From NCBI RefSeq assembly GCF_004362745.1, contig NZ_SNXY01000006.1, forward strand, positions 744,001 to 808,000: DNA of 64,000 nucleotides, read 5' to 3'. The notes under the pieces were generated by a model that worked only from the letters and a program-made list of their open reading frames with translations, was not told the DNA's origin and ran no database searches. This document shows positions 54,022-56,731 of this stretch, in pieces. Both the position numbers and the translations under genes were made by a program. How positions within the stretch are numbered: the first letter of the stretch is position 1; every line of letters begins with the position of its first letter. Source of the DNA: Oharaeibacter diazotrophicus. GTDB lineage: Bacteria; Pseudomonadota; Alphaproteobacteria; Rhizobiales; Pleomorphomonadaceae.

Positions 54022-55047
54022 ATGTTCAGGTGCCTCGCAGCAGCCCTCGCCGCCATCTTGATGGCGACCACGTTCGCGGCGGCCGCTTGGAAGCCGCTCG
54101 CCCGCGCGATCGACCGCGGCTACATCTCGGTACCGTCCTGCGCCAATCTCGCGGACGGGACGCTCCTCTGCGGTGGACGCAAGTACGACGGCGACATCCA
54201 GTGGCTGAAGTTTTCGGGCGGGGTCTGGACCAGGCTCAACGAAACCACGCCCTACCTGTCGCTGACCCGCCCCGAATGCGTCGGGACCCCGTCGGCCGGC
54301 ACCCCGGTCAACTGCGTCTTCAACAGCGGAGCGGGGCTGCTCGTCGTCGCCGGATACGACCGGTCGGGCGATCGCTTCAGGCTCCTGTCCCGTTTCGACC
54401 GGCCGGTGATGTCCGACATCGGCTGCGCCACCGTGCCGGACCAGCGGCCCGGGGTGCCGTTCTGCTCCTATCGCAACGCCGACGGCAACTTGGACAATCT
54501 CGTCGACGGAACGCGTCGACCGATCCATTCCGCGCCGTCCTGCACGAACGACGGCGACGGCAACGTCGTCTGCGTCGCCCTCGGCGACAAGAAGAACGTC
54601 CTCGCCTTCCGCTATCGAGGCGGCCTCTGGCGGGTCGCGGACATCGGCGGCACAGGCACGACGCTCCCGACCTGCACCACGCTGTCCCTCGGTGATCAGG
54701 TCTATTGCACCGTGCGCGGCCTCGACCTGAAGATCTGGCACACGCGTTTCCAGGGTGGCGACTGGAACGCGACGCGCTGGCTGCCGTGGTCGCCGCTGTC
54801 CGGCGAGATCGCGGCCCGGCCGTCCTGCGCCGGTATCGGCGAGAACGCGATCGCCTGCGCCGTCACGGGCGCGCGCGACAATGCGGTCTACGTCTATTCC
54901 TTCCAGGGGGCGTGGACGCCGCTCGCCTCGCTTGGCGTCGGACCGGGCTACGTCGGCGAGCCGAGTTGCACCCATCTCTCGCCGGGACGCGCGGTCTGCA
55001 TGATCCTCGGCGTCGATACCCGCATCTACTACACCGTCGGCCCCTGA
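54022..55047 (+). CDS. Secreted seven-repeat Cys-pair propeller-like protein (paralogue 1)
   Basis: This 341-residue protein has a signal peptide (about 1-21) and seven repeats of 39-51 residues. Each repeat has a cysteine after a P(S/T/E)-like turn and a second about 10-13 residues later: pairs 40/50, 86/98, 135/148, 174/184, 218/229, 269/279 and 316/326. The consensus reads P-S-C, ~9 residues, C, then a strand such as GLDLKIWHTRFQGGDW. The even spacing suggests a seven-bladed beta-propeller with one disulfide per blade, similar in plan to secreted lectin-like propellers. GGGAGG precedes the ATG. A closely similar paralogue follows by 104 bp. The ligand is unknown. Confidence 0.75.
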   Translation: MFRCLAAALAAILMATTFAAAAWKPLARAIDRGYISVPSCANLADGTLLCGGRKYDGDIQWLKFSGGVWTRLNETTPYLSLTRPECVGTPSAGTPVNCVFNSGAGLLVVAGYDRSGDRFRLLSRFDRPVMSDIGCATVPDQRPGVPFCSYRNADGNLDNLVDGTRRPIHSAPSCTNDGDGNVVCVALGDKKNVLAFRYRGGLWRVADIGGTGTTLPTCTTLSLGDQVYCTVRGLDLKIWHTRFQGGDWNATRWLPWSPLSGEIAARPSCAGIGENAIACAVTGARDNAVYVYSFQGAWTPLASLGVGPGYVGEPSCTHLSPGRAVCMILGVDTRIYYTVGP

Positions 55048-55151
55048 GACGCGAAGCTCGTCACCGTCGCCCTCGCGACGTGGTCGTTCGTGTCGCGGGC
55101 ATCCCGCTCCGACGCCCTTCGGGTCCTGCACCCCTCAACGGGAATCCGTCG

Positions 55152-56198
55152 ATGATCAGGTTCCTCGCAGTCGCACTTGCCGCCATCCTCCTCACCGGCA
55201 CGCTCGCCCGGGCGGACTGGTCTCCGTTCGAGCGCTACGAGGAGACCGAATTCTACGACGTCCCGACCTGCGCGTACATGGGCAACTCGAATGTCGTCTG
55301 CGGTGCACGAAAGCGCGACGGCAGCATCCGATGGTTGCGGTACCTCGGCCGGTTCTTCGACGCCGGCCTCGAGACGCGCTATCGCACCTTGACGCGTCCC
55401 GAATGCACGCTGTCGCGGAATACCACCTATCCCGCGATCTGCGCCTTCAACAGCGGGTCCGGCTACCTCGTCGTGATGGGCTACGTCGGGGGGAGAGGCG
55501 GGTTCGAGAAGATCGCGGCGAACGGCAAGGCGTTGTTCTCCGAAATCGACTGCACCTTTTCGGGTTTGCCCGGCCCCAATTCGCGCGGCTACATCTGCGC
55601 GTGGCGCAACAATCTCGGACGCTTCGACAGCACGACCGGGAAGGGCGCGGCGCGGATCTTCTCCAAACCGTCGTGCGCCACCAACGGCTTCGGCGATACG
55701 ATCTGCACGGCACTCGGGGCCCAGAACAACATCCTGGCCTTCCAGTACGACTTCTCGAAGAACGAAATTTGGCGGGTGATCAACCTCGCCGGTACGGGCA
55801 CCTCGGCGCCGGAGTGTATTCCCGCCGCCGACCTGGAAGAGATCTATTGTGCCGTCGTCGGGCTGGACCTGAAGATCTGGCACACCCGCTTCAAGGGCGG
55901 GGCGTGGAGCGCGTCGAACTGGCTGCCATGGTCGTCGCTGCAAGGTGCCTTCGCGACCAAGCCGTCCTGCGCCTACATCGGCGACCGTGGCATCGCCTGC
56001 ACCGTCGGCGGGGCGCGGGACAGCGCGGTCTACGGCTATTCCTACCAGGCCGGTGCCTGGGCTGCGCCCGTGCGGATCGATCCCGGCAAATCGCCCGGAT
56101 TCGTCGGCGAACCGAGTTGCACCAAGGTCGCGCAGGGGCGGGCGATCTGCTTGGCGCTCGGCATCGACAGCCGGATCTACTACACCTTCGGACCCTGA
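55152..56198 (+). CDS. Secreted seven-repeat Cys-pair propeller-like protein (paralogue 2)
   Basis: This 348-residue tandem paralogue of the preceding gene has a signal peptide and cysteine pairs 40/50, 85/97, 134/149, 175/185, 222/233, 273/283 and 323/333, collinear with paralogue 1. The most similar stretch is blade 5, with LDLKIWHTRF in both. The C-terminal blade ends RIYYTFGP (RIYYTVGP in paralogue 1). Divergence elsewhere suggests an old duplication with different specificities. The function is unknown; carbohydrate binding at the cell surface or in the medium is a reasonable guess. Confidence 0.75.
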   Translation: MIRFLAVALAAILLTGTLARADWSPFERYEETEFYDVPTCAYMGNSNVVCGARKRDGSIRWLRYLGRFFDAGLETRYRTLTRPECTLSRNTTYPAICAFNSGSGYLVVMGYVGGRGGFEKIAANGKALFSEIDCTFSGLPGPNSRGYICAWRNNLGRFDSTTGKGAARIFSKPSCATNGFGDTICTALGAQNNILAFQYDFSKNEIWRVINLAGTGTSAPECIPAADLEEIYCAVVGLDLKIWHTRFKGGAWSASNWLPWSSLQGAFATKPSCAYIGDRGIACTVGGARDSAVYGYSYQAGAWAAPVRIDPGKSPGFVGEPSCTKVAQGRAICLALGIDSRIYYTFGP

Positions 56199-56267: not shown

Positions 56268-56630
56268 TCAGGGCCGGACGGTGACCTCGATCTGGTCGCC
56301 TTCCAGGAAGAAGGTCTCCACGCCGGTCTTCTTGGCGGTGTAGGCGATGCCGCGGGCGGGTACGAAGCCGTTGCAGCGGCCGCTGTAGCGCCAACCGGCA
56401 CCGCCGTCGGAGAACACACCGAACTTCGGCTTCGGCAGACTCGCCTTGATCGCGGCGAAGCTCGGGGCGGCCCTGCCGCAGGTCTCGTTGCGGATGCCGT
56501 GCACGACCGCCTTCTGACCGACGCCGAGCAGCACCCGCGGCTGCCAGTTGACGTTGAAGTAGGTCTTGGCGGCCGCCGGCAGCGCGAAAGCGACCACACC
56601 CGCCAGCACCAAGGCTCCAAGTTTGGACAT
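56268..56630 (-). CDS. Small secreted protein of unknown function
   Basis: This 120-residue protein has a signal peptide (MSKLGALVLAGVVAFALPAAA) and a mature part of about 99 residues with two cysteines (51 and 86) that could bridge. It contains NETCGRAAPSFAAIKASLPK and GWRYSGRCNGF. GGAGGGG precedes the ATG at 56630. It is convergent with the propeller paralogue 2 and lies downstream of recO. I do not recognise a family. Confidence 0.65.
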   Translation of the reverse strand: MSKLGALVLAGVVAFALPAAAKTYFNVNWQPRVLLGVGQKAVVHGIRNETCGRAAPSFAAIKASLPKPKFGVFSDGGAGWRYSGRCNGFVPARGIAYTAKKTGVETFFLEGDQIEVTVRP

Positions 56631-56731
56631 TGTCCACCCCTCCCCGTATGAACGCCGCATCCGGAGGGCATCCTAACTGGTGCTTCGGCGTGGTCAACGA
56701 TGCGCATCGCTCCCGCGCAGGCCAGCGGAGT

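Follow-up and report, generated by a model that had tools for sequence, protein, structure and literature searches.

The closest described systems to the locus reported here are the PLL/PHL lectins of Photorhabdus (PLL, PLL2-PLL5 and PHL), which are seven-bladed propellers with a W motif. According to the portions available of the articles cited, DUF346 (PF03984) is described as a PLL-like lectin, PropLec7A (PMC7778903), and strand A of PLL lines a central cavity (PMC6943638). In the same portions, the fucose site 4H of PLL3 uses W251, W265 and S246 (PMC12203525), polar (galactose) sites with an Arg-x-Glu and a second Trp are found in PHL (PMC5584973), and the disulfides of PLL and PHL are formed between subunits (PMC6943638, PMC12203525, PMC5584973).

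The window, that is, the whole stretch of 64,000 nucleotides of Oharaeibacter diazotrophicus analysed here, contains two neighbouring genes whose products we compare with these lectins:

54022..55047, + strand: P0001, a secreted-looking, PLL-like seven-bladed propeller of 341 aa with predicted Cys staples; signal peptide at about residues 1-21.
55152..56198, + strand: P0002, a secreted-looking paralogue of P0001 of 348 aa with seven Cys pairs; signal peptide at about residues 1-21.

The genes are separated by 104 bp, and their G+C content at third positions (0.89 for P0001 and 0.87 for P0002) indicates coding-like codon usage. The two proteins are 47% identical in a MAFFT alignment (46% by BLASTP, E 3e-99). 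By eye, both N-termini resemble Sec signal peptides, ending in AAA-A(W) and ARA-D(W), whereas the N-termini of PLL are not recognised as signal peptides in the available part of PMC12203525. The original prediction of tandem secreted paralogues at 54022-56198 therefore agrees with the ORFs found there and with the signal peptides seen by eye.

Of the 15 Cys of P0001, one lies in the signal peptide and the other 14 form seven pairs with spacings of 10, 12, 13, 10, 11, 10 and 10 residues; P0002 contains exactly 14, as seven pairs with spacings of 10, 12, 15, 10, 11, 10 and 10. A four-way alignment of the pair with two homologues (24% and 26% identical to P0001) has 328 gap-free columns, 39 of them invariant. 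Among these are 14 of the 15 P0001 Cys in gap-free columns, compared with 25 of the 313 other gap-free columns. Because the 14 paired Cys are invariant at around 25% identity, the pattern is not attributable to chance, and the seven regular pairs 10-15 residues apart that had been proposed for both proteins are confirmed by Cys count and by four-way invariance.

Searched alone, neither P0001 nor P0002 has a convincing match in Pfam, NCBIfam or the PDB sequences, and a PF03984 search of their own genome returned no matches. The link to the PLL/PHL group is provided by intermediate sequences. P0001 matches one protein encoded on a Methylomagnum ishizawai plasmid (27%, 2e-14), which in turn matches a Cys-paired DUF346 protein of genome G853 (3e-22), a 668-aa protein with seven Cys-paired blades and a DUF346 match of 8.4e-19, above the Pfam cut-off. 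The homologue from Chenggangzhangella matches PLL2 directly (8.8e-6). Genome G130 has a further homologue, a fragment as its sequence stops at the contig end, with DUF346 repeats (3.1e-13, above the Pfam cut-off) and a match to PLL3 (1.2e-87); its Cys pair lies at 'PxC...DCF', where Cys-free PLL-like repeats have 'PAV...EVF'. At the profile level, hhalign of alignment A2 against A5, a two-row PLL-like alignment, gave 99.8% probability (E 1.6e-27), and the A2 profile also matches a Cys-free PLL-like gene of genome G053 (1.5e-9).

AlphaFold2 models of the two proteins, built from three-row alignments, reached pLDDT values of 80.2 and 81.9 and a pTM of 0.82. In Foldseek, ranks 1-22 are all PLL/PHL chains, both for P0001 (E 4.4e-14 to 1.2e-11) and for P0002 (E 3.9e-14 to 1.2e-11), with the row directly below at 1.6e-8 (CV39L lectin) for P0001 and at 1.9e-9 (WDR61) for P0002. 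VIA-align of the P0002 model likewise placed only PLL/PHL structures in ranks 1-18 (Z 30.0-31.8, rmsd 2.4-2.8, 292-299 residues). BP39L (Z 28.8), the CylK propeller (28.0) and CV39L (26.7) follow; they share the propeller fold with P0002 and are its next best structural rows, but with lower Z than the PLL group, and no sequence link from them to P0001 or P0002 was found. The models thus support the predicted seven-bladed propeller fold that had been anticipated for both proteins, with the Photorhabdus lectins as the best match for each; these share the seven-bladed W-motif architecture and the repeat register with the pair at approximately 13-19% identity.

A reading as an unknown family was rejected, since G130 with PLL3, Chenggangzhangella with PLL2, hhalign, Foldseek and VIA-align all lead to PLL/PHL, and the original statement that the pattern matched no described family is contradicted by profile, intermediate sequences and fold. 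On the same three lines, P0001 and P0002 are placed among the PLL/DUF346 propellers, in a diverged branch with predicted Cys staples. As they have no direct PF03984 match above the cut-off, unlike the Cys-bearing proteins of G853 and G130, we file them under the PLL superfamily and not under DUF346 in the strict sense. The claim of novelty is thereby narrowed to a diverged form of a known lectin propeller, one with predicted Cys staples.

Some of these matches could also be taken to suggest a propeller glycoside hydrolase: the Methylomagnum homologue (WP_221067246.1) is annotated 'glycoside hydrolase', and from Foldseek rank 24 on many of the rows for P0001 are sialidases. Those rows score far worse than the PLL ones (E 4e-8 vs 4e-14), no enzyme family of Pfam or NCBIfam is convincingly matched, and few charged residues are present among the invariant positions of the four-way alignment, so that an enzyme seems highly improbable. 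The hydrolase annotation itself is unsupported by the Pfam and NCBIfam searches.

In the AlphaFold models of both P0001 and P0002, the Cys pair of each blade is placed face to face on adjacent (first and second) strands, and in 14 of 14 pairs the two Cys positions add up to the same value as the inner ends of the hairpin, or differ from it by one. Both models and this hairpin register uphold, as a prediction, the proposal of one disulfide per blade. As strand A of PLL lines the central cavity according to the available part of PMC6943638, the staples are expected to be arranged in a ring close to the channel. The intra-blade pairs differ from the inter-subunit disulfides of PLL and PHL, and no description of a per-blade pattern in PLL propellers was found in the accessible parts of the open-access literature searched, which does not prove its absence.

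We propose that the gene pair is an old tandem duplicate whose products would be exported as PLL/DUF346-type seven-bladed beta-propellers. Each blade would consist of strands A-B-C-D; in blade 7 the C-terminus would supply A-C, and D would most likely come from the N-terminal end, closing the propeller in velcro fashion. Within each blade, strand A, the innermost, would have its Cys stapled to the one directly opposite on strand B. The seven resulting disulfides, all within one chain, would encircle the central channel and would presumably be made in the periplasm by Dsb oxidation; a DsbB gene is encoded in the genome. Each protein would most likely bind a glycan, with a deoxy sugar or an O-methylated one as the probable ligand, at a site in blade 5 (W239 and W256 of P0001). 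We assign a probability of roughly 0.7 to this reading as a whole, an exported, Cys-stapled PLL/DUF346 tandem duplicate that most likely binds glycans through blade 5. The PLL/DUF346 lectins would thereby be extended to exported proteins missed by present profile libraries, and a natural propeller stapled seven-fold would be a test case for disulfide stabilisation of the fold.

The candidate sugar site lies in the following motifs:

54718..54789, + strand: blade 5 motif of P0001, GLDLKIWHTRFQGGDWNATRWLPW, residues 233-256, with W239 and W256, assigned from sequence by eye against PLL3.
55860..55931, + strand: blade 5 motif of P0002, GLDLKIWHTRFKGGAWSASNWLPW, residues 237-260, in which the equivalents of W239 and W256 are kept, assigned from sequence and alignment.

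The strong conservation originally ascribed to blade 5 holds for the stretch LDLKIWHTRF, identical in P0001 and P0002, but not for the whole blade, in which 28 of 51 positions are identical, a lower share than in blade 6 (28/47) and blade 7 (19/29). Two outside homologues keep the stretch in part, with an aromatic residue (W/Y) followed by F and GG. When the repeats are aligned by eye with PLL3, W251, W265 and S246 correspond to W239, W256 and L234 of P0001, and by this alignment LDLKIWHTRF is the ordinary PLL blade motif 'GxDxxLWH', best kept in blade 5. The stretch itself contributes one of the two Trp, and the second is retained as well. The suggestion of a functional site in blade 5 is reasonable, in that the blade holds both Trp positions of a PLL hydrophobic (H) sugar site. 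Judged from these residues, glycan binding through the single hydrophobic site that seems to remain is likely.

By eye, the other six blades of each protein lack the Trp pair of the H site, the Ser/Thr of the PLL3 site (S246) is replaced by Leu234 in P0001, and the polar-site residues described in the available part of PMC5584973 were not found at the matching places of the P0001 and P0002 blades. Having one H site and no recognisable polar sites, unlike the Photorhabdus lectins, the pair appears to be a relative and not a member of their dual-specific group. The same losses would allow sugar binding to have disappeared altogether, leaving a Cys-stapled PLL-like fold as a structural or protein-binding envelope propeller with blade 5 as a protein interface. 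Many propellers are protein binders, which fits such a role. However, P0001 and P0002 carry the single canonical Trp pair unchanged, and both outside homologues have aromatic residues (W/Y) there; we consider the loss of sugar binding, the main alternative, rather unlikely. If the pair does bind glycans through blade 5, it would allow a test of whether the multivalent binding of PLL lectins can be reduced to a single site.

The pair is flanked by genes for an SBP_bac_5 protein, an AMP-binding protein and recO-era, and shares its segment with one further gene:

56268..56660, - strand: small secreted-looking protein, convergent with the pair and located with it in an extra segment that the AMP-binding gene and recO enclose.

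The small protein has no Pfam or NCBIfam match, and a single further match to its gene was found, at another place in genome G005. Two of six relatives (G007 and G010) contain the SBP, AMP-binding and recO genes, the last two nearly abutting, and show nothing of the pair; in the remaining four, the stretch read has no AMP-binding neighbour. Segment 53803-56731, with the pair and the small gene, is thus missing where the AMP-binding gene meets recO in G007 and G010, owing either to a gain here or to a loss there. Since the flanking genes lie next to each other in two of the six relatives, with no pair between them, the pair is regarded as accessory. We lean slightly towards the more specific proposal of a distinct exported PLL branch encoded by tandem accessory genes, with seven A-B stapled blades and a single hydrophobic site, as a hyper-stabilised lectin scaffold.

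Among 20 genomes of the same family, only the pair's own genome has it; matches were found in 3 of 397 genomes of the order (A1 profile), 4 of 385 of the class and 6 of 398 of the phylum (both A2 profile), and 2 of 18 of the family of G377, where the counts include the own genome if searched, the samples overlap and many matches are Cys-free PLL-like proteins. The A1 profile matches a protein of G377 and the G130 fragment. Among the GTDB contigs there is one locus, in Chenggangzhangella methanolivorans (Methylopilaceae), the same as that of G377. Phage origin was also considered and rejected, as neither phages nor viral contigs gave a match.

Among the PLL-like proteins examined, the Cys-paired ones are P0001, P0002 and those of Methylomagnum (L003), Chenggangzhangella (L004 = L017), G130 (L005) and G853 (L018), while L009, L010, L011, L019, L020/L027, L025, L041, L042, L043 and L044 are PLL-like without regular Cys pairs; this tally excludes the repeat protein L021, which has some Cys, and the unresolved L030. 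The Methylomagnum and Chenggangzhangella hosts are users of C1 compounds, which may be a coincidence with two records. The Methylomagnum plasmid record (NZ_AP019785.1) has a second place that matches the query, two in all.

PLL-type propellers also occur in other architectures. In four genomes (L010, L011, L019 and L025) a Cys-free propeller is inserted in the middle of a baseplate-assembly-like protein, so that a propeller of sugar-binding type is built into a baseplate protein of contractile-tail type. L010 (1-3264, - strand) matches TIGR02243 (2.9e-55), and L011 (160-3306, + strand), L019 and L025 are baseplate-like by eye. L018 (1177-3180, - strand) combines its Cys-paired propeller with an N-terminal region containing GHSAGG, hydrolase-like by eye; in this protein Pfam reports DUF346 only. 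In L020/L027, a Cys-free PLL propeller is joined to a region containing HEIGHWLNLNHIWG that by eye resembles a metalloprotease.
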